From Acidobacteriota bacterium (GTDB lineage Bacteria; Acidobacteriota; Terriglobia; Terriglobales; Acidobacteriaceae): a stretch of 64,000 nucleotides of DNA. Position numbers and translations under genes: made by a program. A model generated the notes under the pieces. The model was given only the letters and a program-made list of their open reading frames with translations. It was not told where the DNA came from and ran no database searches. Below, one piece after another: positions 3,778 through 21,433 of this stretch. Positions within the stretch are counted from its first letter, which is position 1. Each line of letters opens with the position of its first letter. The stretch covers positions 1 to 64,000 of the forward strand of contig JACPYL010000018.1 of the NCBI GenBank assembly GCA_016196065.1, written 5' to 3'.

Positions 3778-4227
3778 TTACTTGCCGTACTTATCAACGA
3801 GGCCGGGCCAGTTCTGGTCTGCCTTATTCAGACTGCCCTGCTGGTCCTTGTTGAAGTTGTTCTTAATGTCGAGGTCGTACTGCATCAACAGCCGACCGTT
3901 GACGATCTGCCAGGCCTCGATCTTGACCGGGGCGCGATTGCCGCGGCTCACGCCGTAAGCGCAGTACCCCCCGAATTGTGGTTCATACTTTGCCGGGTCC
4001 TTGTCGAACGCGGCCTTGTGTTCCATCGAGACGAAGTAATATTTCGCGCCGTTGTAGTTCGACTGAAACATCTCGTTTCCTTGCACCGGACGTTGATCCA
4101 TAAAAAACGCCACCGGATCGTATCCCTGGATGGCCAAACCGCTGCGGTCCAGGTTGAGCAATTGCTTGCTCGCGGCAAAAGTAAACACGGTGCTGAACAT
4201 TAGAATCGTCAGAAAAACCTTTCTCAT
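3778..4227 (-). CDS. Secreted YHS-domain protein
   Basis: A 149-residue protein with an N-terminal signal peptide (MRKVFLTILMFSTVFTFAA) and one YHS domain: LAIQGYDPVAFF at about 31-42, YYFVSMEHKAAFDKDPAKY at about 63-81, then QFGGYCAYGV. YHS domains are short metal- or haem-related modules in copper ATPases and secreted proteins; secreted versions are common near DoxX genes. A strong GGAGGA lies 8 bases before the ATG. This is the first gene of the operon running to 395. The 272 bases upstream (4228-4499) contain no gene and should hold its promoter. Confidence 0.85.
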   Translation of the reverse strand: MRKVFLTILMFSTVFTFAASKQLLNLDRSGLAIQGYDPVAFFMDQRPVQGNEMFQSNYNGAKYYFVSMEHKAAFDKDPAKYEPQFGGYCAYGVSRGNRAPVKIEAWQIVNGRLLMQYDLDIKNNFNKDQQGSLNKADQNWPGLVDKYGK

Positions 4228-6340: not shown

Positions 6341-6804
6341 GGAAGCTTCTCCACCCTGGCGAAGTCGATCACAGCCTGATGAGCGCCGCTGTACAGAATC
6401 AGGTAGCCAGCGCGGTGCTCATCCAGTTGGAGTGCGAATGTCTTGTCGGAAGCAAATGCACCCATCAATTGGGCTTGCGAGGGCACGCCACTTGCCGCCG
6501 GAGCCGTCAACGACCAGTACAGCAACGGATCAGGCTCGTCCACCGATTGCACTGGATGCAGCACCACATAGAGGATGCGGGCAGAGTCTGCAGAACTGTA
6601 AAAGTTGGTATGGATCTCGTGTTTTTGCCATAGCGTGTCGGACTTCCTGACTAATTGAGCCGAGGCGGGAAGTTGCGAACTATGCCCCGAGGATGCCACC
6701 ACCTGGGGACGGCGTGCCGCGAGCCCTGTAATCAGGACCGCCGGCAGAACAAATGCGAGTCCGAGGAATGCGCGGCGATGAACGGCTCTCAGCGGTTGAT
6801 TCAT
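6337..6804 (-). CDS. Exported protein of unknown function
   Basis: A 155-residue protein when started at 6804. That ATG is preferred because it overlaps the upstream stop as ATGA (6801-6804); an in-frame reading up to 6969 exists but would overlap the upstream gene heavily and puts low-complexity sequence before the signal peptide. The N-terminus MNQPLRAVHRRAFLGLAF has an RR-x-F-L-G run and a hydrophobic core, so it may use Tat or Sec. The mature part is a short beta-rich domain (ILYVVLHPVQSVDEPDPLLYW, YLILYSGAH). No family is recognised. It belongs to the four-gene coupled operon with the Rieske fusion. Confidence 0.6.
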   Translation of the reverse strand: MNQPLRAVHRRAFLGLAFVLPAVLITGLAARRPQVVASSGHSSQLPASAQLVRKSDTLWQKHEIHTNFYSSADSARILYVVLHPVQSVDEPDPLLYWSLTAPAASGVPSQAQLMGAFASDKTFALQLDEHRAGYLILYSGAHQAVIDFARVEKLP

Positions 6805-7076
6805 GAGGTGGTCCGGTGGGGATTCCTTTCCCCGGGAGGCTCCTCGACCCCTCGCGCCAGGCGATAGAGAAACATCGGCCAGAGTGCGGCGACTCCGGAC
6901 AGGATCAGCAATCGGAAACCAAGGCCGGCTCCCTGGGCTTCTGAATCCACCCGTTGCACACCCCGCCACACGAAACGAATGGCGAACAACAGTCCCAGCC
7001 CGGCGTAGGCAGCAAGGGTGTAGACAAACGAATTGGCTAGAGTCTCAAGCACTTGTGATCGGTACGCCGGGAACAT
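6801..7076 (-). CDS. Small two-helix membrane protein, unknown
   Basis: A 91-residue protein with two hydrophobic helices (about residues 14-36 and 53-72) and a charged C-terminal tail. Its stop overlaps the next start as ATGA at 6801-6804. It is the first gene of the operon 7076-4500 and is probably a small membrane subunit or assembly factor of the Rieske/ferric-reductase system. No family is recognised. The region upstream to 7305 contains no supported gene and should hold the promoter. Confidence 0.55.
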   Translation of the reverse strand: MFPAYRSQVLETLANSFVYTLAAYAGLGLLFAIRFVWRGVQRVDSEAQGAGLGFRLLILSGVAALWPMFLYRLARGVEEPPGERNPHRTTS

Positions 7077-7867: not shown

Positions 7868-8491
7868 CTAGCACGCCCGACCCTCGTGTCTGTGGCCCAG
7901 GAACTGTTCCAGCAACGCCATCACTACGGGAAAGCCGGGTGCGCCTGTTCGGTCCAGCTTGGTCTTTGCCGTGGGAACCCAGTTCAATAGGTGGCGCTCC
8001 AGGAATTCAGTCTCGGCTCTAGCGAGCGAAACGGCGGTGGCTTCGTCCGATGCGTTTTCGTAGGTGTAACGAAGAGCAGCGAGGAACTCCAACTGAGTGA
8101 CAAGGTAGTCAGGGACAGCACAGCTTGGGTCCGACTTGAGGCCGAGAACCTCGTAGAAGTAGGTATTCTCTAAAGCAATTTCTTGCGCGGGATGAGTTTT
8201 GTCGTGCGCTGACTCGAAGAGAGGCACCGGCGGCTCGGGTACGCCAACGTCGAACAGAGTGATATATGCGGACTCGTAGAGTTCGTAGCTAGCGAACCAT
8301 TCAAAACCGGGGAACTCACCCTCACATTCCAAGCGCTTCCACAGATCACAGAGCGTCATCGGAACGGAAGGCTGCCCCAGGAAATTGAAGCACTCGAACG
8401 TGGGGGACGCAAAGACCAGCGCAAAAAATCGATAGAGGTCGTTCTGCTGCCAGTCGATCGAGGTGACAGCGTTCTCGTCAGTAGCGATCAT
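7868..8491 (-). CDS. TorD/DmsD/NarJ-type molybdoenzyme chaperone
   Basis: A 207-residue, mostly helical acidic protein. The N-terminal LYRFFALVFASP and the later segment YLVTQLEFLAALRYTY followed by FLERHLLNWVP are typical of TorD-family chaperones, which hold the Tat substrate until molybdenum cofactor is inserted. It is the last gene of the respiratory cluster, 33 bases after the gamma-like subunit, and its natural client is the NarG-like alpha subunit encoded in the same run. A GGAGG-like run (AATAGGAGGCGCGATCC) lies before the ATG. Confidence 0.8.
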   Translation of the reverse strand: MIATDENAVTSIDWQQNDLYRFFALVFASPTFECFNFLGQPSVPMTLCDLWKRLECEGEFPGFEWFASYELYESAYITLFDVGVPEPPVPLFESAHDKTHPAQEIALENTYFYEVLGLKSDPSCAVPDYLVTQLEFLAALRYTYENASDEATAVSLARAETEFLERHLLNWVPTAKTKLDRTGAPGFPVVMALLEQFLGHRHEGRAC

Positions 8492-8524
8492 TTGGATCGC
8501 GCCTCCTATTTCTGAAACTCTGGC

Positions 8525-9256
8525 TCATTCCAAAACTTGCCACACCGAGAAATATTTTCGGCCGTCACGATCTTTCTGGCTCCCGTTCCAGACAGCGAAG
8601 GCCACGGTCGTCCCGGCGGCCAGATCGGGCAGCTCGAAGATCACGTTCCATCGGTCGTTCTGATAGGAACTGCTTGCGGGGAAGGGTTTACCAGTGCGCT
8701 TGGTTGTACTGCGGCCCTGTGCCTGCATCACCATAGCGCCGCGCGTGGCATTCCAGTAGTAGATTTCGACGGGGTGTTCAGCGTCTCCCATTTGTAAAGA
8801 GGGAGCAATCGTGTTGATGTCCGACTTTTCGGGAAACATGACTGCAGCGGCGTCGAAGAACCGATCGTCGGCTTCGGTCGGGACTTTGCGGAAACGGGTC
8901 TCTGGTGGTGTGTTGGGGACTTCTGCGAGCGTGACCGCGTCGCGTGTTGGATCGTGCCAGCTGAGCTGAAACAGCAACTTTCCACCCGAACGAGCAGCAC
9001 GGACGTCGAGGCTCGGGATCTCCGGCGGTGCGGGCTCGTCGGTATCATAAAGCGGAGGCGTGCGGTTCAGGGCGACATGCTTCACCGCAATCTGACTCCA
9101 TGCTCCGGGGCCGCCATTGAGCAGAGCATCAGCGCTCGCTGAGGACGCAGGCACGGGCAGCGACTGCCCGGCAGCCGGTTTCGCCCCGGTCTGTGCCCAC
9201 ACGGTGGAGAGCACCAAACCGACTGAGACAGTGATCACAAATTGGCGAGTTCTCAT
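8525..9256 (-). CDS. Ethylbenzene dehydrogenase gamma-like haem-b subunit of a type II molybdoenzyme
   Basis: A 243-residue protein with a Sec-type signal peptide cleaved after about residue 22 (VWAQ). The mature part is the beta-sandwich of EbdC/DdhC/SerC-type gamma subunits: paired segments LFQLSWHDPTRD and FDAAAVMFP, and a C-terminal AVWNGSQKDRDGRKYFSVWQ. In characterised relatives a Met in the first region and a Lys in the last ligate haem b; the Met in AAVMFP and a Lys in QKDRDGRK are candidates. It would relay electrons between a periplasmic cytochrome and the Fe-S chain of the beta subunit. It lies 8 bases after the beta gene. Confidence 0.8.
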   Translation of the reverse strand: MRTRQFVITVSVGLVLSTVWAQTGAKPAAGQSLPVPASSASADALLNGGPGAWSQIAVKHVALNRTPPLYDTDEPAPPEIPSLDVRAARSGGKLLFQLSWHDPTRDAVTLAEVPNTPPETRFRKVPTEADDRFFDAAAVMFPEKSDINTIAPSLQMGDAEHPVEIYYWNATRGAMVMQAQGRSTTKRTGKPFPASSSYQNDRWNVIFELPDLAAGTTVAFAVWNGSQKDRDGRKYFSVWQVLE

Positions 9257-9264
9257 GGATTCTC

Positions 9265-10266
9265 CTACAGCTGGATCTGCACCAACTGGGGCCGCACGCG
9301 GTACCGCGTCTCGGCATCGCGGCCGATCAGCAGTTGCAGTGCCTCACTGCGCCCGCCCTCCTGGGTTTTCTTGAGCTCCGCCTCCAGGCGCACAATCACA
9401 TCTTTCACCTCCGGCCCGAAGAGGTAGATAAGGTAATCGAGCGGCACCCGCGGGTCCTCCTGAATGCTCTTGCCGTAGTTGTCGCGTTTTGGCGGATTGA
9501 ATGGCGGAACGTAGAAGACGTTGGGCTGCGTTCCCTTCTCCGGGAAGAGAGGCAGAGCGATCTTGTGTACCAAAACCAGCTTGTGCACAGGAGACTCGGG
9601 ATCGTCGAGTATGCCAACGAAGCGCAATCGGCCCGGACACTGCGCGGCGCAGGCGTTCACTTGGCCTTTCTCAAGCCGCGGATAGCAGAAGATGCATTTC
9701 TCCGATTTCCCAGTGACCTCGTTGAAGTAGATCTTCTTATAGGGGCACGCCTTGATGCAGTAGCGATAACCCTGGCAGCGCTCCTGGTCAATCACCACGA
9801 TGCCGTCTTCGTCGCGTTTGTAAATAGCCTTGCGCGGACACGCCTCCAAACACGCAGGGTGCGTGCAGTGGTTACAGATACGCGGCAAATAGAAGAAGTA
9901 GTTCTCGTCTTCATTCATGCTGCCCACATCTTCGTCCCAGTTGACGCCGGACTCCGGCTCGGGCGAGGGCATGACTGGCTGCTTCTTGCCTTCATACAGA
10001 CGCTGTTCGTAGTTGTATTCCCAGGCGTGGCCGTAGTCGTCCATGGTGGGCAGCGGGCTGGGCTGGAGCAAGCCATCTTTCCATCCGCCGCCGATACGGT
10101 CCCACTGGCGCGGATAGCCAAGGCCGGGACGGGTCTCGACATTGTTCCAGTACATGTAGCCGGTGCCGTCGCGGTCGGTCCAGAGTTTCTTGCACGCGAT
10201 CGTGCAAGTCTGGCAGCCCAGACATTTGTTCAGGTCCATCACCATCGCATATTGGTGTTTTGACAT
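9265..10266 (-). CDS. Fe-S beta subunit of a NarH/DdhB/SerB-type molybdoenzyme
   Basis: A 333-residue protein with four cysteine clusters. CLGCQTCTIAC begins at about residue 15; CNHCTHPACLEAC, CQGYRYCIKACPYKKIYFN and CIFCYPRLEKGQVNACAAQC follow. In CQGYRYC an aromatic residue stands where a cluster cysteine would be, as in NarH (Trp there), predicting three [4Fe-4S] and one [3Fe-4S] centre. There is no signal peptide, so it is probably exported bound to the Tat-targeted alpha subunit. It lies 12 bases after the alpha gene and passes electrons to the molybdenum subunit. Length fits selenate, chlorate and dimethylsulfide enzymes better than the longer NarH. Confidence 0.9.
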   Translation of the reverse strand: MSKHQYAMVMDLNKCLGCQTCTIACKKLWTDRDGTGYMYWNNVETRPGLGYPRQWDRIGGGWKDGLLQPSPLPTMDDYGHAWEYNYEQRLYEGKKQPVMPSPEPESGVNWDEDVGSMNEDENYFFYLPRICNHCTHPACLEACPRKAIYKRDEDGIVVIDQERCQGYRYCIKACPYKKIYFNEVTGKSEKCIFCYPRLEKGQVNACAAQCPGRLRFVGILDDPESPVHKLVLVHKIALPLFPEKGTQPNVFYVPPFNPPKRDNYGKSIQEDPRVPLDYLIYLFGPEVKDVIVRLEAELKKTQEGGRSEALQLLIGRDAETRYRVRPQLVQIQL

Positions 10267-10278
10267 GGCTGCCTCTCC

Positions 10279-13044
10279 TCAGACCTTCGCCTTCTCAACG
10301 TCCACCTTGATGTCGCGGTTGTTGCCGGTCGGCCCCCAGTAGTTCAGGCGGAAGTTGACATGGCCGTACTTGCCGATGAGCTGGGTCGGTTTGATCTTGA
10401 TGTAGGTGAGCGACTGCCATCCGCCCTCCTTGAACCCAAGGTATTTTTCCCAGCCGTGATACATCGTGACGCGGCCGGGCTTTTCGCCGGGCAGGATCTG
10501 CAAGCGGCAAACGCAGTGGCCGACTTCATTGTGGATGCGGACCCAGTCGTTGTCTTGTAAGCCGCGCTTGCGCGCGTCGTCTGGATGCATGTAGACAATA
10601 GGTCCGCCGCGCTGCAGCCGCAGCATGGCGCGGTGATCGCGCCACGTGGAGTGGATCGACCAGCGCCCGTGCGGCGTGTTCCAGTAGAGCGGATATTTTT
10701 CGGCAACCGGCTCTTTGAACGTCGGCAGTTGCTCGCCCAGTTCGATGTACCAGGGATGATCGATGTAGAACTGCTGGCGCCCCGTCAAAGTTCGCCATGG
10801 GCGCTTCTTTTCAAGCTGATGCTTGAAGGGCGTATAGGCAATGCCGTCTTCAATGTCGCTGTTCCACGATTCGGGATCCGTCGCGATGAAGCGCTTCGGT
10901 TTCTCCTGCAGTTGCTTGTAGGTCATTCCCTTCGTTTCTTCCGCGTTCCCGAGGATGAAGTCCACAGCCTGTTCGTCACTCTGGATCTTCCCCTTGCCCG
11001 TCCAGTCGTGCGCGAGCTGCGTGAAATCGCGGTTCCAATCGAAGGCTTCGTCGTGGAAGGGTTTCAGGCCTTTCTTGGTTGCAACCTCAGCCATCTTTTC
11101 AGCCAGTGCACGGAAAATGTCCCAGTCGGTCTTGCTTTCAAACAGTGGCTCACAAGCTTTGCCGAACGGGTGAATGTAGCTGTGGCAGTCGGTGGAGTTG
11201 ATGTCCACCTTCTCGTAGTAGCTGGCCGCGGGCAGCACGACGTCGGAGTAGAGCGCCGTCGTGTCCATGCGGTAGTTGATGTCGACAATTAGATCGAGGT
11301 CCTTCCACAGTGACGACTCGATGATCTCGTTGCCTTTGGCCTGGTTCAGGTAGTTGGCTCGCCACACGATGAAGGCGCGTGGCTTCTTGCCGTTTTTCGG
11401 CCAGAGCGGCATCCATCCGTTCTTCACGGATTCCTGGATGTACCACTCGATCGGCTTGCCGTTATAAAGATGTGGGTCCTTATTCGAGGAGTGCACATAG
11501 CTCCACAGCGTGGTGTTCTGGAAGCGCTGCTTCTTGCGGGTTTCGGGAAAGGCGAGCTTAAAGAAGCCTTGCTCGGGCCAGAGGCGCTCCTGTCCGACGT
11601 AGTGATTGAATCCACCGCCATTTTTGCCGGTGTTTCCCGTGAGAGCAACCAGCAGGATGAAGGAGCGGTTGGTCAGATCGTTGTGGAACCAGTGATTGGT
11701 GCCGGCACCGTGGATGATCATCGCCGGCTTGCGCGTGCCCAGATCTCTGGCGAAGAGTTCGATCTCGTGGGCGGGCAGACCGGTTCGTGCGGCGACTTCA
11801 TCCACCGTGTATCCGGCAATTTCTTTCTTCAGGAGTTCGAATACGGTGGTGACTTCAGCGGTCTTGCCATCGGCGAGCTGCACGTGGAACGTGCCGGTCA
11901 GCGCGGGATCGGCACCGTTGAGTTGGATGGTCTTCTGATCCGATCCCATGGAACCGGGCGTTGGCACTGCCTTCTGCTGCTTCGTATCCCAGAAGTAGAA
12001 AATGTCGTCCTTGCCACCTTTCTTGAGATCAGACTCGCGCAGAAAGCGGTTCGTGCCCGGAAGCACAAGCAGTGGCATGTCCGTTTGTTCTTTCACATAC
12101 GGCGCGTCGATGAGGTTCTGATCGATCAGCAGCTTGGCGACGCCGAGCGCGAGAATGCCGTCGGTGCCAGGGTTGATCCGGAAGTAAAGATCGGCATGAA
12201 TGGCGCTGGAGTTGTAGTCCGGAGAAATGCAGACGAGCTTAGCGCCGTTATAGCGAGCCTCGTAGGCGAAGTGGGCGTCGGGGATGCGCGTCTGCGAGAT
12301 GTTCGATCCCCAAAGCACGATGTATTTCGAGTTGAACCAGTCAGCGCATTCGCAGGACTCGGTCTGAACACCCCAGGTCAGCGGCTCACCCGGGGGCAGG
12401 TCACAGTACCAGTCGTAGAAGGAAAGGAAAACGCCGCCAATGTAGTGGGCAAGCCGCGAGCCTGCGCAAAAGCTGACCGGACTCATAGCGGGGATGACAC
12501 TGAAGAAGGAATTTGTATCTGGGCCATGGTTGTAAATATTGTCGAGCAGGTTTTCGGCAACCATGGTGAGCGCCTCGTCCCAGGTAGCGCGGCGCCACTT
12601 GCCTTCTCCCCTTTCGCCTGTGCGGATCAACGGATAGCGCAGGCGCTGCGGGCTGTATACGTATTCGGTAAAGCATCCACCCTTCTGGCATCCGCGCGGA
12701 TTGTAATCCGGAAGATCCGCATTGATACGCGGATAGTCGGCCGCCTGCTCCTCGCGGACCATCACGCCGTTGCGCACGTACACCTTCCAGGAGCAGGAGC
12801 CGGTGCAGTTGGCCGAATGTGTGGAACGGACGACTTTGTCCCACGTCCAGATCTTGCGGTAGAAGTCCTCCCATCCGCGATAGGGATAACTGCGCAGCGG
12901 ATCAAAGTCTCCCGTTAGCGTGCTCAACACCGGTTTCTCTTTACGCGAGCAACCGGGGAGGGCGAGAGTAGCAGCCGTTATTGCGGCAGTTCGTATAAAA
13001 CTGCGTCGCGAGAAGGGCTTCTTAGGTTCGTTGTTATCGCTCAT
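10279..13044 (-). CDS. Tat-exported molybdenum catalytic subunit, NarG-like type II DMSO reductase family
   Basis: A 921-residue molybdopterin enzyme. The N-terminus has a twin-arginine signal (SRRSFIRTA) ending in LALPGC, a possible lipobox, so it acts on the outer face of the membrane and may be lipid-anchored. The [4Fe-4S] ligands H76, C80, C84 and C119 are of the His-Cys3 type. D211 in YDWYCDLPP is the expected aspartate Mo ligand, and ADWFNSKYIVLWGSN follows as in nitrate reductases. It is about 320 residues shorter than E. coli NarG, matching periplasmic-facing nitrate, selenate and perchlorate reductases. Nitrate is the most likely substrate from motif similarity, but oxidation of nitrite or reduction of another oxyanion cannot be excluded. 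The start overlaps the cytochrome stop as ATGA (13041-13044). Confidence 0.88.
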   Translation of the reverse strand: MSDNNEPKKPFSRRSFIRTAAITAATLALPGCSRKEKPVLSTLTGDFDPLRSYPYRGWEDFYRKIWTWDKVVRSTHSANCTGSCSWKVYVRNGVMVREEQAADYPRINADLPDYNPRGCQKGGCFTEYVYSPQRLRYPLIRTGERGEGKWRRATWDEALTMVAENLLDNIYNHGPDTNSFFSVIPAMSPVSFCAGSRLAHYIGGVFLSFYDWYCDLPPGEPLTWGVQTESCECADWFNSKYIVLWGSNISQTRIPDAHFAYEARYNGAKLVCISPDYNSSAIHADLYFRINPGTDGILALGVAKLLIDQNLIDAPYVKEQTDMPLLVLPGTNRFLRESDLKKGGKDDIFYFWDTKQQKAVPTPGSMGSDQKTIQLNGADPALTGTFHVQLADGKTAEVTTVFELLKKEIAGYTVDEVAARTGLPAHEIELFARDLGTRKPAMIIHGAGTNHWFHNDLTNRSFILLVALTGNTGKNGGGFNHYVGQERLWPEQGFFKLAFPETRKKQRFQNTTLWSYVHSSNKDPHLYNGKPIEWYIQESVKNGWMPLWPKNGKKPRAFIVWRANYLNQAKGNEIIESSLWKDLDLIVDINYRMDTTALYSDVVLPAASYYEKVDINSTDCHSYIHPFGKACEPLFESKTDWDIFRALAEKMAEVATKKGLKPFHDEAFDWNRDFTQLAHDWTGKGKIQSDEQAVDFILGNAEETKGMTYKQLQEKPKRFIATDPESWNSDIEDGIAYTPFKHQLEKKRPWRTLTGRQQFYIDHPWYIELGEQLPTFKEPVAEKYPLYWNTPHGRWSIHSTWRDHRAMLRLQRGGPIVYMHPDDARKRGLQDNDWVRIHNEVGHCVCRLQILPGEKPGRVTMYHGWEKYLGFKEGGWQSLTYIKIKPTQLIGKYGHVNFRLNYWGPTGNNRDIKVDVEKAKV

Positions 13045-14525
13045 GGTTGATGCCCCGAAGGCGTTCCTGAAATCGAGTTTTGCGCCATAGATTTCTGCCC
13101 TCTTTGCTCCCCTAGCGTGCGCAAGTAGGCGAGCAAGTCCGCAACCTCCTGATCGCTAAGCGCTGGAGCGTCTGCACGCTGGAAGGCGGGCATGGCCGTT
13201 GCCACTCGACCGTTGCGGATTGTGCGTACGATAAAGTCGTTCGTAGCAGCCTGCTGAAACACGGGGTTGCCAATCTCCGGTGCGATTCCGCTGCGACCGT
13301 TCATGCCGTGACAGCCGGCGCAATTCCTCAGGAAGAGGGTGTGACCGCGAGTGGAGTCACCCTGCAGGATTAGTGGAACCATTGCCGGGGCTACCGTAGC
13401 ACCCGTGCGGAGATACTCAATCACCCCCGCAATCTCTTCGGGAAGCAGTCCACCCGCATGCGGGCCCCAGGCAGGCATCTGCGTGCCAGGTCGTCCTCGC
13501 TCGATGTTGGTCTGGAAGTATTCGCGAGTTGCGGCTGCAATCAACGAGGCGCCGCGAATCGCCGGAATGAAGCGGTTGAATTTCTTGTCCCAACGGGTGT
13601 AAGCGCCGTTGCCGTGGCAGGCAGTGCAGTACTGCCTGTAGACCTGTTCACCGGTCAGGGGAACGGGATGGAGCGAGTGGTATTTCTGCTCGATCTTGTC
13701 AGGCGCAAGATAGCTCTCGGGCACATCCCGTTTCCACTGCGAGAGCATGTACGCGGTGAGCGCCAGTGCTTCTGGCCGGGTGACGGTTGGATTGCGCATC
13801 AGGCTATCGGGAACCACGCCACCGGGATCGCGGAGGTGAGCGTTCTGCCAGTCCCATGTGGTATGTGGCGGCTTCAGGTTCGTCATGATGAGCTGGTGCT
13901 TGGTCTTCGCACCTTCATTATCGAGCGCAGGTCCGAGCGCACCGCCGCGTCCACCAAGCTTATGGCAGGAGCCGCAGCTTTTCTCCTGATAGAGCTTCAT
14001 GCCGGCAACCAGCAGCGGAATCTGATCGGGCGGTAACTTTTCTGCGTCGTGGCAAGTAACGCATGTCGCCTCGGTTAGCTCCGGCGGCAGCAGAGGGTAG
14101 TCCCAGAACACGTCTTCAGCTTTCGCTTCATTGAACGTCATGGCCGCGCCCTGCCCGTGGTGACAGACCGTGCAGCCAAAGCGATCGACGGGATGCTTGT
14201 CGAGGATGTGACCGGGATGAGCGCGGTGGGGCTGCGGCACGTCCGTCATGCGAGGATCGTCAATGCCGTTGTGACAGGTAACGCAGCGGTCCACGGTGGC
14301 GAGCGCCGGGATGCTGGCCTGTTTCATCTCGACGCGGAACTTGGCGAGCAGTTCGCGGCCGCGGTCGTCCGTGGCTTTCTCGCGAAGAATGTTGCGGTAC
14401 TCGTGTTGCACGGTTTGCCATTGCGCGAGGTAGTTCTCGCGCACAGCCGCACCCACCAGATAAGCGATGGTGACAATGCTCGACACCAACAGGAGCCAGC
14501 GATAGATTCGGGATGGGTCTGTCAT
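13041..14525 (-). CDS. Membrane-anchored hexahaem c-type cytochrome
   Basis: A 494-residue protein with an N-terminal membrane anchor (about residues 9-27) and six CXXCH haem sites beginning at residues 81, 118, 155, 184, 300 and 402. The last two sit in separate monohaem cytochrome-c-like domains (YRQYCTACHGNG and RNCAGCHGMNG) with candidate Met ligands in TQMPAWG and TAMPAF. It lies between cytochrome b and the NarG-like gene and probably carries electrons from the Rieske/cytochrome b module to the molybdoenzyme. It is 10 bases after the cytochrome b stop and overlaps the next gene by four bases. Confidence 0.88.
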   Translation of the reverse strand: MTDPSRIYRWLLLVSSIVTIAYLVGAAVRENYLAQWQTVQHEYRNILREKATDDRGRELLAKFRVEMKQASIPALATVDRCVTCHNGIDDPRMTDVPQPHRAHPGHILDKHPVDRFGCTVCHHGQGAAMTFNEAKAEDVFWDYPLLPPELTEATCVTCHDAEKLPPDQIPLLVAGMKLYQEKSCGSCHKLGGRGGALGPALDNEGAKTKHQLIMTNLKPPHTTWDWQNAHLRDPGGVVPDSLMRNPTVTRPEALALTAYMLSQWKRDVPESYLAPDKIEQKYHSLHPVPLTGEQVYRQYCTACHGNGAYTRWDKKFNRFIPAIRGASLIAAATREYFQTNIERGRPGTQMPAWGPHAGGLLPEEIAGVIEYLRTGATVAPAMVPLILQGDSTRGHTLFLRNCAGCHGMNGRSGIAPEIGNPVFQQAATNDFIVRTIRNGRVATAMPAFQRADAPALSDQEVADLLAYLRTLGEQRGQKSMAQNSISGTPSGHQP

Positions 14526-14535
14526 CGCATTTTCC

Positions 14536-16077
14536 TCAGTGCACAGGCCACTGCGAGGGCCACCAGTAAAAATGCCAGTTTGGTCCGCGATGGACGGTCG
14601 CGAAGTACGTCAGCAGAGTGAAGCTGACCAGGAAACAGGTGAACAGCGCCACCGCCGAGAGCCGTACCGAATCATTGCGTTTCAGGATGAACAGCGACCA
14701 AGCAGCAAAGATCAACACCAGCAGCGAACCGGGATTAATCGCGATGATCCAGACCTGGTGAATGTTCGGAAACCAGCTGCGCAGCCAGCCGTAGTTCACA
14801 GTGAACGCGAGCATGCCGACGGTCACAGCGCAGGCAAAGAGTAAGGATTGCCAGAACACGGAGCGCTCACCGCTAGTGCCGAACCACGTGCCTTCACCTC
14901 CTGGGCGGCGATCCAGAAACGGGATCAGCGCAAGTCCGACCAGGACGATCATCGGAATCAACATGCCTCCCATGAACGCCGAATAGGAAACCAGTTCCTG
15001 AAGTCCCAGGAAGTACCAGGGCGCCTTCGCCGGATTTTCCGGAACGGCTGCGTTCGCGAGTTCCTTCAGAGGCGCATCGTAGTAGTAAGACAAAATCAGC
15101 GTAGTCGCTACCGTAACCATGAAGACCGAGAGCTCGGCCCAGAACAAATGCGGCCAACTCATCACCGTGTTCTCAGGCCCCCGATTCACCGGCGGGCGCT
15201 TGCCCTTCACGAGCGCCATCAGTCCATAGGTTTTGGTGGCAAGCGGTTGGAATACAGGCCGGCGTTCTCCGCCCCATTCGGCGAGTCCGCCGGGCGGATC
15301 TTCTGGCTTGGCAAGGCCACCATCCTTTCGAATTCTCCAGAAGTGCACGCCGAGCAGCGCGACCAGTGCCAGCGGAAGAACAAAAATGTGGAGGACGTAA
15401 AATCGAATCAGCGCGTCCTGCCCGACGTAGTTTGCACCCAGCAAAAGGCGTTTTTGGAGGCCACCGGGATCGAAGAATTTCGTGATGCCGATGGCATCGG
15501 TGAATTCACGCGGTGAGTTGGCGATATTAGAGCCGATGGTGATCGCCCAGTAAGCCAACTGGTCCCAAGGCAGCAGGTAGCCGGTGAAGCTCAGCGCCAG
15601 GGTGATGACGAGCAGTCCGAGTCCCACGAGCCAATTGAATTCACGCGGCTTCTTGTAGCTCGCCGTAAAGAAGACCCGTGCCATGTGCAGCAGGACTACC
15701 AGCACCATCAACTGCGCGGACCACCGATGAATGTTGCGGATGAAGCGTCCGGTAGAGACAGTGAAGTGAATGTCCTTGATGGATTGATAGGCCAGATCGG
15801 TCGAAGGTTTGTAGTAAACCATCAGAAGCACGCCAGTGATGATGGTGATGATGAAACTGGCCGTCGCCATCAAGCCGAGTCCGAATGTGAGTGTTGGCCT
15901 AAGCGTCCGCACGTGTACGCGAACGCTGTGGATGTGCAGAAAGAGATTGTGGAAAGTGGCCTGTGACTCCTCGCGCTCCGATTCGGGTGTCTTGCCCAGG
16001 CGGAAGCAGGACTCCTTCAATGTCCGAGGTAGATCGTGCAGGTTGTGAATGAACTCTCGCGTCGCGCTCTCTGCCAC
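14536..16077 (-). CDS. Cytochrome b of a Rieske/cytochrome b complex (b6 and subunit IV in one chain)
   Basis: A 513-residue membrane protein with a cytosolic N-terminal extension, then the four-helix haem-b domain (RNIHRWSAQLMVLVVLLHMAR, with the expected histidines) and the C-terminal subunit-IV-like part. The Qo-site loop reads KAPWYFLGLQE instead of PEWY, a variant seen in several non-proteobacterial complexes. Additional helices follow at the C-terminus. With the Rieske protein it should oxidise quinol and conserve energy. It lies 10 bases after the Rieske gene and 10 bases before the multihaem cytochrome gene. Confidence 0.9.
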   Translation of the reverse strand: MAESATREFIHNLHDLPRTLKESCFRLGKTPESEREESQATFHNLFLHIHSVRVHVRTLRPTLTFGLGLMATASFIITIITGVLLMVYYKPSTDLAYQSIKDIHFTVSTGRFIRNIHRWSAQLMVLVVLLHMARVFFTASYKKPREFNWLVGLGLLVITLALSFTGYLLPWDQLAYWAITIGSNIANSPREFTDAIGITKFFDPGGLQKRLLLGANYVGQDALIRFYVLHIFVLPLALVALLGVHFWRIRKDGGLAKPEDPPGGLAEWGGERRPVFQPLATKTYGLMALVKGKRPPVNRGPENTVMSWPHLFWAELSVFMVTVATTLILSYYYDAPLKELANAAVPENPAKAPWYFLGLQELVSYSAFMGGMLIPMIVLVGLALIPFLDRRPGGEGTWFGTSGERSVFWQSLLFACAVTVGMLAFTVNYGWLRSWFPNIHQVWIIAINPGSLLVLIFAAWSLFILKRNDSVRLSAVALFTCFLVSFTLLTYFATVHRGPNWHFYWWPSQWPVH

Positions 16078-16087
16078 GGTATGCCTC

Positions 16088-16552
16088 CTACACGCTGTAC
16101 CGCGTGCCCTCTGGGACCTCGTTGTCCGCGTTGACGATCAAATCACCGTTCGCGGCACGACTGACCTCCAGCCAGGGCAGAGGTCGCGGCGCCGGACCAC
16201 CCACCACGCCGCCTTTGCTGTTGAAACGGGAGCCGTGGCACGGGCATGCAAATCCATCCTTCGAGCGCGCTACCGTGCAACCCAGATGAGTGCATGTGCT
16301 CGAAATCGCGTAGAAGCCTTCGTCGTCGCGGAACAGCACCAGGTTTTGATCGGTGAAAGCGGTTTCACTTCCAGCTGAAAATTGCTCGGGCGGCCCGAGT
16401 TTGAAGCGGCGCACCGGGCCGGGCAGCACTGCGGGGTTGGGCAACCGCAACATTCCGGCAGCCGCGGTGCCCATGGCTGCAAGAAAACTTCCCAACGACG
16501 CGAGTGTAAGAAAACTGCGCCGGTTAACACGGGGTGGATCTAGACGGGACAT
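16088..16552 (-). CDS. Rieske iron-sulfur protein
   Basis: A 154-residue protein when started at 16552, where AAGGAG precedes the ATG at good spacing and a twin-arginine signal follows at once (NRRSFLTLASLG). A longer reading to 16621 lacks these features. The domain carries CTHLGCTV and CPCHGSRF, the two-loop Rieske signature with the extra disulfide cysteines of the high-potential respiratory type. The start overlaps the end of the FAD/Fe-S gene by 13 bases, which implies coupled translation. It partners the cytochrome b encoded next. Confidence 0.92.
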   Translation of the reverse strand: MSRLDPPRVNRRSFLTLASLGSFLAAMGTAAAGMLRLPNPAVLPGPVRRFKLGPPEQFSAGSETAFTDQNLVLFRDDEGFYAISSTCTHLGCTVARSKDGFACPCHGSRFNSKGGVVGGPAPRPLPWLEVSRAANGDLIVNADNEVPEGTRYSV

Positions 16553-18444
16553 GGCTTCCACTCCTTGGCAAAGCTGAACTTCTCCATGGTGATGGCCGTA
16601 GTGGGACAACGCTGCGCGCACAGCCCACAGCGAATGCAGCGTTCTTCGTCCTTGATAATGGCGGAGAGGTCTGCAGGGTCGAGGCTTGACTCTCGCGTCG
16701 CGGTTTCAAGTTCAGGCGAAAGCGCTAGCCGGTCGAACGTCACCAACTTCAAACACACCGTGGGGCAAACATCCACGCAGCCGCCACACAGGATGCAGCG
16801 TTCGCCGTCAAAAATAGTGTTGATGCCGCAGTCGAGGCACCGGCCAGCTTCGGCCAGAGCCTCTTCCTCGTTGTAACCAATCTCAACCAGAGCAGAGGGG
16901 TTTTTCAGACGCTCTTTCGCCGAGAGAGTTGGAATGTGCAGTCGCGAACGATGCTCGTAGTGTTTTTCACGCTTATATGGCTCAACAGGAAAATGGAACT
17001 GGACCTCCTCTTGCGTGATTTCCTTGCCACGCAAGAAGCGATAGACGGAACGAGCTGCCTGTTTTCCGCTGGCAATGGCGTGGATCATCAGGCGCGGCCC
17101 GTAAGCGATGTCGCCCGCGATGAAGACTCCCGGTGCCGAGGTCGTACAAGTCGCAGAATCGTTGACGATCTGCTGGGCAGAGCGCATCTCGATCCCGTCT
17201 CGTTGGGCGTCGATAAAACTGAGGTCGGCAGATTGCCCGACCGAGAGAAGAACGGTGTCGCCCTCGATCTCCGTCGTAACCGACTCATCGAACTTGGGCG
17301 CAAATCGCTTGTTTTCGTCGTAGACCTGACTGCAGCGCACGAACTTCACGCCCCGCACGAACTTTTGACCATTCCTCTCCTCGAACAGAATCTCTTTTGG
17401 TCCCCAGCTGTTGTGGCGGGTCACGCCTTCTTCCTGGCCTTCAAGGATCTCCACCGTATCGGCGGGCATCTCTTCCAGAGACTCCAGGCAGACCAGGTTC
17501 ACCTGCCGCACCCCAGCCATGCGGGCCGCCGTGCGCGATACGTCGTACTCTTCCTGTCGCAACACAGTTCGGGCAACGTCATAGGCCACGTTGCCACCAC
17601 CGATTACGATCACTCTCTGCCCCAGGGAAACGTCCTTGCCCAGTGACACATCCCGCAGAAAATCGACACCGCCCATCACGCCGATCGCATCCGCATTGGG
17701 GATCGGCAGGGCCCGGGATCGCTTGGCGCCACACGCGATGATGACGGCGGCATAGTCCCGACGAAGGTCCACGAAGCTGACGTCTCTCCCAACCTGTGTG
17801 TTGCAACGAATCTCGACGCCCAGAGACTCAATCACTGCGATTTCCGCCCGGATCAAGTCGCGCGGAAGGCGATATCCAGGGACGCCGGTGTAGAGCATCC
17901 CCGCAGGCTGTGGTTCCATTTCCAAAATCGTCGGGCGGAATCCCATCAGGGCCAGGTCGTGCCCGGCAGCTAGACCGGCAGGACCTGAGCCGATGATCGC
18001 GATCCTCTCTCCGGTAGGTTTGGGAAACTCGGCGTTCGCAAGAAACTCGACCAAGTGGCTGAGTTCCTCAAGATCGTCACACTGGCGTGTTTCATTTTTG
18101 CTCTTCAGGTAGGGAAACACTTCACTGCCTGCATCACTACGGGTGTCGCTCCCGAACTTCTCGCAGACGAAGCGCTTGAGCGCCCGAATGGAAATCGGCT
18201 GATCGATAGTTCCCCGGCGGCAAGCCGCCTCACACGGGGCACCGCAGATGCGTCCACATAGAGAGGCCAAGGGATTTGGCCCGCGGGCAATTAGGTAGGC
18301 TTGCTCGTAGTCGCCGGCAGCGATGGCGCGCACGTACCCGCGTGCATCGGTATGCACCGGACAGGCGTATTGACACTTGATCTGTTCCCGCCAATAGGCG
18401 GGGTCGGCTACGCGGACGCGATATTGCGTATCAGTATCAATCAT
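16540..18444 (-). CDS. FAD/NAD(P)-dependent oxidoreductase (GltD-like) with C-terminal ferredoxin domain
   Basis: A 634-residue flavoprotein from the start at 18444, which has an AAGG run before it; an in-frame reading to 18504 adds 20 unremarkable residues. The N-terminal Fe-S domain is of glutamate-synthase-beta type (CQYACPVHTDARGY, then CGRICGAPCEAACRRG). IIGSGPAGLAAGHDLALMG binds FAD and VIGGGNVAYDVA binds NAD(P). The C-terminus has further ferredoxin motifs (CILCGGCVDVCP, CIRCGLCAQRCP). Such proteins shuttle electrons between NAD(P)H and Fe-S partners in the cytoplasm. Within this operon it may feed or balance electrons for the respiratory chain; the partner is unknown. Confidence 0.85.
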   Translation of the reverse strand: MIDTDTQYRVRVADPAYWREQIKCQYACPVHTDARGYVRAIAAGDYEQAYLIARGPNPLASLCGRICGAPCEAACRRGTIDQPISIRALKRFVCEKFGSDTRSDAGSEVFPYLKSKNETRQCDDLEELSHLVEFLANAEFPKPTGERIAIIGSGPAGLAAGHDLALMGFRPTILEMEPQPAGMLYTGVPGYRLPRDLIRAEIAVIESLGVEIRCNTQVGRDVSFVDLRRDYAAVIIACGAKRSRALPIPNADAIGVMGGVDFLRDVSLGKDVSLGQRVIVIGGGNVAYDVARTVLRQEEYDVSRTAARMAGVRQVNLVCLESLEEMPADTVEILEGQEEGVTRHNSWGPKEILFEERNGQKFVRGVKFVRCSQVYDENKRFAPKFDESVTTEIEGDTVLLSVGQSADLSFIDAQRDGIEMRSAQQIVNDSATCTTSAPGVFIAGDIAYGPRLMIHAIASGKQAARSVYRFLRGKEITQEEVQFHFPVEPYKREKHYEHRSRLHIPTLSAKERLKNPSALVEIGYNEEEALAEAGRCLDCGINTIFDGERCILCGGCVDVCPTVCLKLVTFDRLALSPELETATRESSLDPADLSAIIKDEERCIRCGLCAQRCPTTAITMEKFSFAKEWKPCPV

Positions 18445-18493
18445 CGCTCGCCTTGCTTTAGGGCTAGAGTCTTGCCCCCAAGGGATAACCGTC

Positions 18494-18509
18494 TGTGACC
18501 ACAATCACG
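18494..18509. promoter_or_regulatory. CRP/FNR-superfamily-type palindrome
   Basis: TGTGA-CCACAA-TCACG is close to the TGTGA-N6-TCACA consensus of CRP-like regulators. It is centred about 57 bases upstream of the FAD/Fe-S oxidoreductase start, a usual activating position. Direct proof of binding is lacking. Confidence 0.4.
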
Positions 18510-18546
18510 GACCACTGTTAGTCTCAAAATCCTGAATGCACCCGCA

Positions 18547-20010
18547 CTAGAACTTCCAACTGAGCTCTCCATAGCCGAACTGGCCTGTGCCTCCATCCGG
18601 ATAAATCTTCTGAATCACCGCTCGCCCAGTGGCAACCGCGTAGTATCCGGTCAGAGTGACGTGTGGATTGACTTGATAGTCCGCGTTCGCGTCGTAAACA
18701 TTGGCCAGACTCCGGATTCCGCCGCTCGGGCGACCGACAAAGCCGAAGGTGGAAGACTGAAAAGCTCCTCCCCCGGAGTACCACAGGTCATTCTTGTTAC
18801 CGAGTCGAAGGAAATGCGCATCCGAGCGGATGGTCCACTTCGGATGAGGACGCAGAATCACTTCTGCAAACGCATCCTGGTTGTTCATCAGGTTGTAAAA
18901 AGGAAACCGCGCGTAGATCCGGGGCGTGGGTAGCACCTGGAAGAAGGTTCCGTGTTGCCCGTCGGCAGGATTGTCGTCGCCGGTGCTGTAGAAATATCCG
19001 CCACGAAACCATGGTTTGAGTTTCCATACAGGCTGGAAGCCGCCCTCGATGGCTATGGCTCCAGCGTGGTGATCCAATACGCCCCAACTGCCGACCTGCC
19101 AGGTTCCCCAAAAGAGCAGATCGGCCGTCCCCCATTCGGTGTTCAGCGTCTGCAGATAGTTGCCGCCCAGGCTGGTGATGCGGATGTTGTGCTGGTCTGC
19201 ATTGCGCGCGGACACGGGGCGATTGTCTACCTTCAGGACCGGCCGGCCATCGTGATAACTCAGCGCAAAAACGCGCCATTCCCCAGGTGACTTTTTCCCG
19301 ACCGAGCGCGTCACCGCACCGTACATGACATCTGTGTCCAGTTCGCCCCAACCGTTGACTTGGAAGACGCCCTGAGTAGCACGCGCAATCAGCAAGGTGA
19401 CATTCATGCCGGGCGTTGCGCGTACGTATTGAATTCCGTCGAAGCTCCTCCCCACATGGGAAAAGCCGAAATTTCCAAGCAGGCGGTGGGCAATCCGGTC
19501 GCGCTTCAAAACCGAGAGCGTGGTGTCCTTGGGAGCAACTTCAGCCCCATCAACGAACTCAAATCGGCCGAAGCGCAGGCTGCTCGCTTGGTCCCCGAAA
19601 ATCGCCTTCAGACGAACGAACCCCTGCTTGGCGAAGAAGTACGCTGCGGTGGAGTCATGATTGGCTGCGAAGTAGCTGGCCCCCAGTCCCAACTGCCCTT
19701 GTGGCGGGGAGGCGACGGAATTTTCCGGAAGACCGAGAAGAAGAGGCTGGGCAAATTCCACCTGCCAGTCCCATCGGGGCCGTTCCTGGCTGAAGGTTAG
19801 TCGCAGTAGCGAGGCGAAGTACGTATAGTTGGGCTCGGCGGCAGAGGTATCGAACCAGTCCCAGACCTCCGGGCGCACTCGCAGGCTGCCAGAAAAGTGG
19901 ATTCCAGCAATCGTGAGCGGCGTGGATGGTTGGTTTTGTGCGCTGGATCGACTACCGCTGGCGAGCAACCATAGCGCCAGGGTGGCGCCAATGGAGGCCC
20001 TTTTCCGCAT
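18547..20010 (-). CDS. Alginate-export-type outer-membrane porin
   Basis: A 487-residue protein from the start at 20010 (AGGAAG just before the ATG); an in-frame reading to 20109 would extend past the signal peptide. The N-terminus is a Sec signal (ALWLLASGSRSSAQ). The mature protein has alternating beta strands and ends in ELSWKF, with the C-terminal Phe typical of outer-membrane barrels. It begins with IAGIHFSGSLRVRPEVWDWF and matches the alginate_exp family. It probably lets a small anion or solute reach the periplasmic molybdoenzyme; substrate is inferred only from context. Confidence 0.8.
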   Translation of the reverse strand: MRKRASIGATLALWLLASGSRSSAQNQPSTPLTIAGIHFSGSLRVRPEVWDWFDTSAAEPNYTYFASLLRLTFSQERPRWDWQVEFAQPLLLGLPENSVASPPQGQLGLGASYFAANHDSTAAYFFAKQGFVRLKAIFGDQASSLRFGRFEFVDGAEVAPKDTTLSVLKRDRIAHRLLGNFGFSHVGRSFDGIQYVRATPGMNVTLLIARATQGVFQVNGWGELDTDVMYGAVTRSVGKKSPGEWRVFALSYHDGRPVLKVDNRPVSARNADQHNIRITSLGGNYLQTLNTEWGTADLLFWGTWQVGSWGVLDHHAGAIAIEGGFQPVWKLKPWFRGGYFYSTGDDNPADGQHGTFFQVLPTPRIYARFPFYNLMNNQDAFAEVILRPHPKWTIRSDAHFLRLGNKNDLWYSGGGAFQSSTFGFVGRPSGGIRSLANVYDANADYQVNPHVTLTGYYAVATGRAVIQKIYPDGGTGQFGYGELSWKF

Positions 20011-20089
20011 CTTCCTGTGAGGACGTTGGTCCACCGTCGTCTGCCTCAACAGACTTGCCAACCGTGAACGGTACGAGCGTACGCAACAA

Positions 20090-21214
20090 TCAGCTATGAC
20101 ATAAGTCACGGCGTTCTGTGACTCTTGGTTGCCAAACGCAACTTGCTTCTTCAGCGAACATATCTCCCGTCAGGGCGTAGGCACGCGCGCGTGATCCGCC
20201 ACATACTTCCCGGAATTCGCAGACGCCGCACTTGCCTTTCAGGTTCTTGCTGTCGCGAAGAGCCACGAACATCGGTGAATGGCGGTAGAGGTCCGTGAGT
20301 CCCTGCTTGCGAACGTTTCCAGCTGACACGGGCAAGAATCCACTGGGAAACACCTCACCCAGATGGGAGATGAACACGAAACCCTTGCCGTCATTGATTC
20401 CGCGGGGCGCGCGGCCAATCCCGTCGGGAGTGCTCATCCCCAACATCGACGGCAGCCGGTGACCGCTGTTCTTGCGCTTCTCTTCTGTCCGGCGCTGGAG
20501 CAGGAAGCGGCGGTAGTGCTGGGCCTCCGTACTCTTGATATCAAATTTCACGCGCTGCGAGGTTTCGTGCAGCTTTTCGAACACCTGCTCGAACTCCTCG
20601 GCTGAAATCAAGTCGCTCACAGAACCGCGACCGGTGGGCACAAGGAAGAAAACGCTCCAAAGGACGATATCAATCTGTTCCAGCAGTGCAATGATGGAAT
20701 CCATGTATTGCAGATTGTGCCGTGTGATGGTGGTGTTGATCTGCACTGGGAGCCCGATCTCGCGGGCCCAGCGTACTGCCTGCAGAGTCCACTCGTAGGA
20801 ACCCGGCACGCGGCGGAAGGCATCGTGTATGTCCGCCGTAGGCCCATCGAGACTAATGGCCAGTCGCGCCAGTCCGCACTCCTTCAACTTCAGAATCGCT
20901 TCCTTGGTTAGCAGGGGTGTAGCACTTGGGGTCAGCGAAATACGCACGCCATGGGTCGAAGCGTATTCCACCAATTCGAAAATGTCGGGACGCTTGAGAG
21001 GATCGCCACCGGTGAGCACAAAAACGGGCGCTTCCAGCGCCGCAACTTCATCGATCAGCCGTTTACCTTCAGTGGTACTCAATTCAAGAGCGTTGCGGAC
21101 GGGCTGTGCGCAGGCGCGGCAGTGCACACAAGACAAGTCGCATGCCTGGGTTGTTTCCCAGATCACAACAAAGGGCTCCTGATCAAAGTTCAGTGGTCGC
21201 GATGGCGGTATCAT
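20090..21214 (-). CDS. Radical SAM/SPASM protein (TIGR04053-like)
   Basis: A 374-residue protein from the start at 21214, preceded by GGAG at good spacing; a reading to 21277 adds 21 residues without support. The radical SAM cluster C-x3-C-x2-C is in TTQACDLSCVHCRAC near residues 25-32, followed by VLTGGDPLKRP. The C-terminal SPASM region has CGVCEFREVCGGSRARAYA and a last Cys in EEASC, binding auxiliary [4Fe-4S] clusters. Relatives (NirJ/AhbC-like and PqqE-like) modify haem side chains or peptides. In this cluster it may process a haem or a maturation peptide for the respiratory enzymes; this is inference. Confidence 0.82.
   Translation of the reverse strand: MIPPSRPLNFDQEPFVVIWETTQACDLSCVHCRACAQPVRNALELSTTEGKRLIDEVAALEAPVFVLTGGDPLKRPDIFELVEYASTHGVRISLTPSATPLLTKEAILKLKECGLARLAISLDGPTADIHDAFRRVPGSYEWTLQAVRWAREIGLPVQINTTITRHNLQYMDSIIALLEQIDIVLWSVFFLVPTGRGSVSDLISAEEFEQVFEKLHETSQRVKFDIKSTEAQHYRRFLLQRRTEEKRKNSGHRLPSMLGMSTPDGIGRAPRGINDGKGFVFISHLGEVFPSGFLPVSAGNVRKQGLTDLYRHSPMFVALRDSKNLKGKCGVCEFREVCGGSRARAYALTGDMFAEEASCVWQPRVTERRDLCHS
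20097..20108. promoter_or_regulatory. TGAC-N4-GTCA palindrome (Dnr/NnrR/FNR-like box)
   Basis: TGAC-ATAA-GTCA is a perfect palindrome of the CRP/FNR superfamily type (Dnr/NnrR consensus TTGAC-N4-GTCAA). It lies about 90 bases upstream of the porin start and overlaps the last codons of the radical SAM gene. A second perfect copy of the same half-sites is at 21434-21445. Confidence 0.4.
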
Positions 21215-21433
21215 TTCACGCTCCGATGAGCGCCAGGCTCCTTCGCGATCGCGCGTGCTGCAGGAGTCGATTCCCAACGCTTCAATGGTTCGGATCGCAG
21301 CGGGTTGTCCAGGGCCAATCCCCGAACAGTTTTCGCATCGGCGATGCCCATCGCGTTCCCCTCGTGGTTAGGCTTCATGCCTCATGGCTCCGATTGCTAT
21401 CCCAAAATTACGGGAGTTACGAAGCCGTGCCGA

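Follow-up and report, generated by a model that had tools for sequence, protein, structure and literature searches.

How would a nitrate reductase that faces the outside of the cell obtain its electrons, if the membrane subunit NarI is missing from its operon? The question is raised by a locus in the 5.5 Mb genome of an Acidobacteriota bacterium of the family Acidobacteriaceae (assembly GCA_016196065.1). The stretch that was analysed, here called the window, consists of bases 1-64000 of contig JACPYL010000018.1, whose full length is 296,919 bases. On its minus strand, at 7868-18504, lies a block of eight genes which, judged from the sequence, probably codes for a nitrate reductase that faces outward (into the periplasm), along with a private menaquinol-oxidising Rieske/cytochrome b complex. 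In transcription order the block consists of:

16540-18504, minus strand: GltD-like NAD(P)/FAD flavoprotein with Fer4_20 (N-terminal), Pyr_redox_2 and two C-terminal ferredoxin motifs; it heads the block in all loci whose contigs extend that far
16088-16621 (open reading frame, ORF; probable start at ATG 16552, overlapping the end of GltD), minus strand: Rieske [2Fe-2S] protein, PF00355, with a twin-arginine N-terminus
14536-16077, minus strand: fused cytochrome b (b6 + subunit IV type), PF00033, haem histidines 117, 131, 230 and 245
13041-14525, minus strand: hexahaem cytochrome c with an N-terminal membrane helix, CxxCH at 81, 118, 155, 184, 300 and 402
10279-13044, minus strand: alpha, type II dimethyl sulfoxide (DMSO) reductase, predicted to be exported by twin-arginine translocation (Tat), with a gate of the nitrate-reductase type; TIGR03479 1186 bits (cut-off 984.75)
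9265-10266, minus strand: beta, NarH/PcrB-like iron-sulfur protein, TIGR03478 494 bits (cut-off 481)
8525-9256, minus strand: gamma, EbdC/NxrC-like haem b protein, PF09459 above cut-off, TIGR03477 102 bits (below 170)
7868-8491, minus strand: TorD-type chaperone, PF02613 above cut-off, TIGR03482 91 bits (below 152)

The genes are packed tightly. The Rieske ORF starts inside the 3' end of the GltD-like gene, and the following junctions down to TorD measure 10, 10, -4, 12, 8 and 33 bases, the overlap (ATGA) being that between the hexahaem cytochrome c and alpha genes. An earlier note on this DNA, made from the letters alone, had described a run of ten minus-strand genes in which a Tat-exported NarG-like alpha without NarI is closely joined to a Rieske/cytochrome b pair. 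ORF calling together with Pfam and NCBIfam confirmed all ten ORFs and their family names, and the description of alpha and its tight block stands as well; the scans gave no match to NarI families among the ten genes. The run does, however, extend to 21277, as the radical SAM ORF occupies 20090-21277 and the end point given in the note, 21214, marks an ATG inside it. Separate transcription of the Rieske and cytochrome b genes, which the note had named as something that would speak against it, is not suggested by the overlaps and short gaps. A promoter scan (2 sites against a shuffle mean of 4.4) and the count of terminator-like structures (16 against 13.2) were not used as evidence.

Recurrence and transfer of the block

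Alpha was sought in a class sample of 299 genomes, of which 10 carry it (the window's own genome counted), and in a phylum sample of 396 genomes, of which 8 have it at E ≤ 1e-130, five of the window type and three more distant (38-39%). The two samples together give 11 carrier genomes, and with two contigs of Terriglobia metagenome-assembled genomes (MAGs; L032 and L033, among the matches listed) 13 loci. A scan of contigs gave at least 80 loci, of which 75 of 80 (L037-L111) are 31-36% matches of NarG length; these are counts and not frequencies. The full set of eight genes is found in the same order in nine of the 13 loci, the window included, and the other four (L019, L022, L032 and G268) are cut by contig ends; the order is contradicted in none of them, and in G268 the block is split over two contigs (L025 and L026) that together hold all eight genes. 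The 4-base overlap between the cytochrome c and alpha genes is kept in all eight loci where both ORFs were called. Eight genes that recur in order in 13 loci are not a chance arrangement. The carriers all appear to be Acidobacteriota, and two of the loci may come from the same species (L032 lies within 0.008 of L023, a locus in a genome from the window's own family, in the alpha tree). Among 24 chosen genomes, cytochrome b of the operon type is present at 79-100% identity in all 11 carriers, while of the 13 non-carriers 11 have a best match of at most 57% and two have no match.

The history of the block was followed by means of its GltD-like protein, in a tree of 27 rows (one of 28 was removed as too short). 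The 11 GltDs of the block form one clade (100/99) apart from 11 stand-alone GltDs (100/98), and are joined by the GltD of a locus with a ccoN-type oxidase (100/99, flagged as a long-branch join). Between the window's genome and G017, which belongs to another family, the block GltDs are 85.6% identical and the stand-alone ones 58.4%, whereas between G017 and G480 the values are 73.8% and 81.2%. Family f1 as a single clade is rejected for alpha (p 0.018) and for the block GltD (p 0.020), but its stand-alone GltDs do form one clade (8 rows against 3 others, 100/99), which suggests that the block has moved by horizontal transfer. The groups were picked after the first trees had been viewed, and these p values are thus a guide.

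The alpha subunit and its likely substrate

The closest solved relative of alpha is PcrA (PcrAB, 4ydd/5e7o), with 993-997 bits, followed by NarG with 544, EbdA with 429 and NxrA with 248. The identity is 51% to PcrA, 48-50% to the haloarchaeal pNarG, 41-44% to NarG and 33% over aligned pieces to NxrA. In an alignment of 40 alphas, with 14 NarG and four haloarchaeal rows among them, the window's alpha has the ligands of the type II family, Asp215 at the molybdenum, as also in PcrA, and His76, Cys80, Cys84 and Cys119 at the iron-sulfur cluster FS0. Its gate is made up of Phe209, Tyr210 and Glu486, with Trp86 on the FS0 side and His451 at the molybdenum site. All 14 NarG rows are identical to it at every one of these places, and so are the four haloarchaeal rows, apart from an Asp at the place of His451. 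PcrA has Trp instead of Glu486 and His instead of Trp86, NxrA has Cys at the place of the FS0 histidine and Tyr at that of the gate glutamate, and ClrA, EbdA and NxrA deviate at more sites than PcrA does. Lys121 is common to alpha, PcrA and the haloarchaea, where NarG has Arg. Published work, cited throughout from portions of the papers, describes the same gate as F192/Y193/W489 in PcrA and F243/Y244/E528 in Haloferax NarG, with the glutamate conserved in NarG (PMC8301774). Since the gate and the FS0 tryptophan match the NarG rows and not PcrA, ClrA or NxrA, nitrate is the likely substrate, and the preference for nitrate in the earlier note is borne out.

Alpha still differs from the NarG of NarGHI, which has about 1200 residues, falls in a clade of its own and works with the membrane subunit NarI, whereas alpha appears to be exported and is accompanied by a gamma subunit of the haem b type. 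The twin-arginine motif is recognised by eye, while PF10518 gives E 0.0022 and 18.3 bits, below its cut-off of 22.7. In all 12 acidobacterial alphas (the window, L017-L024, L116, L033 and L032) the Tat signal ends in PGC, which resembles a lipoprotein box with an unusual proline, and a lipid anchor may hold alpha on the outer face.

The twelve acidobacterial alphas form one clade (100/100), separated from the NarG rows with the same support, and alpha and NxrA (7b04) lie on opposite sides of a branch with support 100/99. In a reduced tree of 34 of the 40 rows, from which six long or redundant rows were removed, PcrA joins the acidobacterial clade weakly (57/84). Other sisters were not rejected by the approximately unbiased test, neither the haloarchaea (p 0.19, not in the best tree) nor NarG (p 0.18), but a clade of acidobacteria, haloarchaea and PcrA (p 0.028) and a pairing of haloarchaea with PcrA (p 0.034) were rejected. 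The trees contain several long-branch rows, and a search for TIGR03479 in Pseudomonadota, where at most two best candidates per genome were scored, found it in none of 398 genomes at E ≤ 1e-200 and added no SerA, DdhA or PcrA row. The earlier note had named, as an outcome that would speak against its reading, a phylogeny that puts alpha firmly in a family with a known, different electron-transfer chain. Among the families in these trees, from which SerA and DdhA are absent, alpha falls into no other named one. Alpha is best regarded as a separate lineage of the nitrate-reductase type, with PcrA, the haloarchaeal pNarG and NarG as candidate sisters.

Other type II enzymes were seen along the way. 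Three genomes of the phylum (G585, G418 and G632; loci L117, L118 and L119) hold a different type II alpha, in the order alpha-TorD-beta, with a gate unlike that of Nar, which groups with EbdA and ClrA on long branches. On a plasmid of Alisedimentitalea scapharcae, typed as conjugative (L031), a type II alpha-beta-TorD-cytochrome c set follows directly behind a gene of the chlorite dismutase family.

The genomic surroundings bear on the substrate as well. The window's genome has five PF00384 proteins, and of the four besides alpha two are nearest to formate dehydrogenase, one to FdhF/YdeP and one to QrcB, all below cut-offs; none of the four has NarG as its best model, as far as the matched pieces go. 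NrfA was found in five of the 11 carriers (G147, partial; G047, G078, G130 and G268) and NirK above cut-off in two (G295 and G078), so that six have one or the other. NIR_SIR matches and multihaem matches occur in seven carriers each, the window's genome being in both sets.

That the enzyme reduces perchlorate or chlorate in the manner of PcrA/ClrA seems extremely unlikely to us, despite PcrA being the best solved match and a weak neighbour in one tree. The gate and the FS0 side speak against it, and PcrAB has a chlorite dismutase partner, while no such partner was found with the acidobacterial block: the family gave no match in five of the 11 carriers and lies off the block's contig in the other six, and the match in the window's own genome is HemQ (NF008913, 288.6 against a cut-off of 253). 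A nitrite oxidoreductase, or a mainly oxidative enzyme with the Rieske/cytochrome b complex serving reverse electron flow, would agree with an outward type II enzyme that has an NxrC-like gamma, and an NxrA-like gene does stand behind a similar module in another genome (L180). We nevertheless hold it very unlikely, as alpha is far from NxrA in score and on the tree, differs from it in the FS0 histidine and the gate glutamate, and as the NrfA or NirK of six carriers points to reduction. Somewhat different is the idea that the true substrate is another oxyanion or N- or S-oxide (selenate, iodate or similar) and that nitrate is a side substrate. Enzymes of type II are promiscuous, chlorate and perchlorate are further substrates of Haloferax NarGH (PMC8301774), the comparison lacks SerA and DdhA, and among the NCBIfam models cytochrome b scores best with ExtP, from operons for selenite/tellurite reduction (245 bits, below its cut-off of 290). 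The complete nitrate-reductase gate signature stands against all this, and we consider another main substrate unlikely.

Electron supply and related systems

Gamma is connected to EbdC both by sequence (E 1.7e-8; NxrC, E 3.5e-7) and by the fold of its model (predicted local distance difference test, pLDDT, 73), which matches 2ivf_C with E 1.7e-13 and 7b04_C with E 1.6e-11, in support of the EbdC-like gamma of the earlier note. Met156 and Lys234 do not vary across 12 rows and are also found in the haloarchaeal, ClrC and EbdC rows, and they may be the Met/Lys haem ligands as in EbdC. Haem b groups of this type have potentials of +256 mV in ethylbenzene dehydrogenase (EbDH) and +324 mV in dimethyl sulfide (DMS) dehydrogenase (PMC8840923), and with a potential that high a cytochrome c is a more fitting donor than quinol acting directly. 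A candidate donor is encoded in the block, as the hexahaem cytochrome has six CxxCH motifs in 12 of 12 rows and a C-terminal part that resembles diheme QcrC and CcoP chains. The Rieske protein has the motif CTHLGC...CPCHGS in all 12 acidobacterial rows, and cytochrome b has no cysteine at the place for haem cN.

Menaquinone is the quinone known from the phylum and is presumed for the block. Alpha would receive its molybdenum bis(molybdopterin guanine dinucleotide) cofactor in the cytoplasm with the help of TorD and then be exported by Tat, carrying beta along. The Rieske/cytochrome b complex would take up menaquinol at its outer quinol site and oxidise it there, and one electron could then pass over the Rieske protein, the hexahaem cytochrome c, the haem b of gamma, the iron-sulfur clusters of beta and FS0 to the molybdenum in alpha, where nitrate would be reduced to nitrite. 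The second electron would travel through the b haems and end up either on a quinone, as in a Q-cycle, or, at the cytoplasmic face, on the GltD-like flavoprotein. Quinol oxidation of this kind would release protons outside, so that an outward-facing enzyme would still be coupled. The route is drawn from the gene order, the potentials of related haems and the models for haloarchaea and Methanoperedens.

The nearest counterpart is the haloarchaeal pNar (Haloferax, Halarchaeum, Halonotius), which has the same order of Rieske, cytochrome b, alpha, beta, gamma and TorD genes, a twin-arginine alpha and the Phe/Tyr/Glu gate. On plasmids of Haloferax larsenii and Halarchaeum the genes for Rieske protein, cytochrome b, alpha, beta, an 'ethylbenzene dehydrogenase-related' gamma and TorD follow one another, and the loci L034 and L035 match the first five. 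No NarI homologue is reported for the haloarchaeal pNar in the portion cited of PMC7754194, and nitrate reduction in haloarchaea is reportedly inhibited by antimycin A (PMC4683180). The parallel to these operons is closer than the earlier note had claimed. As additions in the bacterial version the note had named a multihaem cytochrome and a haem gamma subunit; the former holds, but the latter does not, since the haloarchaeal operons too have an EbdC-like gene, between beta and TorD. What distinguishes the acidobacterial block is the cytochrome c gene between cytochrome b and alpha and the GltD-like gene in first place, neither of which is annotated in the haloarchaeal operons L027 and L028. 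In addition, all four haloarchaeal Rieske rows lack the serine that is the second residue behind CPCH. The block can be described as a pNar to which a hexahaem cytochrome and a GltD-like protein have been added, i.e. pNar plus a Rieske/cytochrome b-NAD(P) module. We found no description of a bacterial GltD-Rieske-cytochrome b-cytochrome-NarGH-type block in the literature searched, the coverage of which is partial, with subscription journals thinly represented. In Methanoperedens an outward NarG occurs with an Orf7-like b cytochrome, and a Rieske/cytochrome b complex with multihaem c is the proposed donor. There the nar genes and the Rieske/cytochrome b genes (with pentahaem cytochromes) lie in two separate clusters, with GltD not mentioned in the portion cited, as opposed to the single block with GltD in Acidobacteriota (PMC4683180).

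Some observations weigh against a nitrate reductase fed in this way. A glutamate put into the gate of PcrA lowered the affinity for nitrate (PMC8301774), and the gate signature is therefore a mark of family and no proof of substrate. The window's own genome has no NrfA, and no NirK above cut-off, to take care of the nitrite. The haloarchaeal donor model of NarB, NarC and Orf7 is unproven, and according to PMC7754194, as far as cited, no association of a donor candidate with NarGH had been shown before; in the purification from Haloferax mediterranei only NarC stayed with NarGH, and not NarB or the gamma-like Orf7. The model of the hexahaem cytochrome (pLDDT 54) is too weak for use, and no docking is shown.

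The same enzyme could also be part of a bifurcating NAD(P) complex, in which the electrons of menaquinol are split between nitrate, by way of the hexahaem cytochrome c and gamma, and NAD(P)+, by way of the b haems and GltD. Such a split has been proposed for two complexes of the anammox bacterium Kuenenia (Kuste4569-4574 and Kustd1480-1485), which consist of a Rieske protein, a b6-type cytochrome b, hexa- or octahaem c and a putative NAD(P) oxidoreductase, i.e. an FAD/NAD(P) flavoprotein with several iron-sulfur clusters (PMC12954380). The parts are of the same kinds as in the block, a likeness that concerns the type of part. The nitrate couple, at +433 mV (PMC4683180), gives at least the driving force that is argued for nitrite in PMC12954380, and the GltD-like gene, first in every locus that reaches it, evolves with the block. 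The block departs from the anammox complexes in its fused cytochrome b without the haem cN cysteine, where these have a split b6/subunit IV with haem cN, and in the enzyme of nitrate-reductase type that it includes; the GltD-like protein could moreover be an input of NAD(P)H into the chain. Two features were tried as marks of GltD-linked complexes and dropped: the Rieske serine, which is linked to a high potential, occurs in all nine GltD-less loci with the motif and not in the GltD-bearing L091, and the conserved N-terminal histidine of cytochrome b, a possible extra haem site (PMC12954380), is found in GltD-less loci too. Bifurcation is, in our opinion, possible, and the nitrate reductase with its menaquinol-oxidising complex remains the reading that we prefer.

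Similar modules and neighbouring genes

A module of GltD with Rieske and cytochrome b genes, which the earlier note had missed, occurs elsewhere beside terminal enzymes of quite other kinds. Among 26 further Rieske/cytochrome b loci (four places of 143-205 bits and all but one below 125 bits were left out) 16 (L175-L178 and L180-L191) include a GltD-like gene in the stretch, and the other ten (L179 and L192-L200) have none. Four of the 16 have a terminal enzyme. Two (L176, G632:C48, and L177, G585:C29) carry GltD, Rieske, fused cytochrome b and cytochrome genes directly before a clade II nosZ and nosD, with a NosZ of 917 bits to TIGR04246 in L176 and one 75% identical to it in L177; Rieske and cytochrome b genes in nosZ clusters have been published before (PMC13122619). 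The third (L175) has an oxidase of the ccoN/ccoO type (342 and 137 bits, both below cut-offs) with GltD behind it, and the fourth (L180, G418:C146, same phylum) an NxrA-like alpha (924 bits to Kuenenia nitrite oxidoreductase, 7b04) and a beta-type match directly behind the GltD-Rieske-cytochrome b-cytochrome module. No terminal enzyme was recognised in the other 12, one of which (L178) was searched with Pfam and 11 with six reference proteins, NirK not among them, and the window's own, although a beta-like match is present in L183, some 4.7 kb off. L178 (G000:C18:234001-252000), at a distance of about 221 kb from the block, is a second module of the genome to which the window belongs, with GltD, Rieske, b6, subunit IV and multihaem cytochrome genes. 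In a Chloroflexi MAG (L091, RBG_16_60_22) GltD, cytochrome b, subunit IV, Rieske and cytochrome c genes are followed by NarG, NarH, NarJ-like, NarI-like and transporter genes, the last three named from reading the ORFs, so that the module there stands beside an enzyme that seemingly has a NarI-like subunit of its own.

Two further genes complete the run of ten in the window:

18547-20109, minus strand: porin-like beta-barrel (Alginate_exp), PF13372; an optional neighbour outside the core
20090-21277, minus strand: radical SAM/SPASM protein, TIGR04053 489 bits (cut-off 395); outside the core

The probable start of the GltD-like gene, ATG 18444, is 102 bases past the stop of the porin gene. A porin is near the block in two of the 12 other loci (L017, and L033 on the opposite strand), with two more cut before its position, and the radical SAM gene adjoins the block in none of the 12, though L020 has a partial match some 3.5 kb past TorD. 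Of the ten-gene unit proposed in the earlier note, eight genes thus recur together, and the porin and radical SAM genes fall outside. A greedy clustering of ORFs, which is rough and has some ORFs on the wrong strand, gives flanking genes common to no more than a few loci each: three loci have the porin, L018 and L020 have one family in common, L019 and L021 several, and L024 and L025 one. Elsewhere in the window, three overlapping minus-strand genes lie at 4500-6969, the middle one (5285-6340) with an MsrQ-like haem membrane domain and a Rieske-type ferredoxin domain, matched below cut-offs, and the outer two with no NCBIfam match; a tRNA-Sec gene is found at 29768-29864 and a gene of the YHS (seleno)protein family at 3778-4227.

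The electron supply to outward-facing nitrate reductases is unsettled in haloarchaea (PMC7754194), and a block that keeps Rieske protein, cytochrome b, multihaem cytochrome and gamma haem together offers a complete candidate route. The GltD partner makes the bifurcation proposed for anammox testable outside the anammox bacteria. It is conceivable, though doubtful, that GltD-Rieske-cytochrome b-multihaem c is a general plug-in module by which the electrons of menaquinol are bifurcated, some going to NAD(P)+ and some to the high-potential terminal enzyme encoded alongside (for nitrate, N2O with NosZ, O2 with the ccoN type, or of the Nxr type), and that the block in the window is a nitrate-driven generator of NAD(P)H; if so, it would be the anammox proposal with its exergonic branch made explicit in the genes. 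The presence of such modules next to several terminal enzymes suggests that in Acidobacteriota private bc-type complexes are wired to single acceptors, and such wiring would bear on their energy yield and on the turnover of nitrate and N2O.

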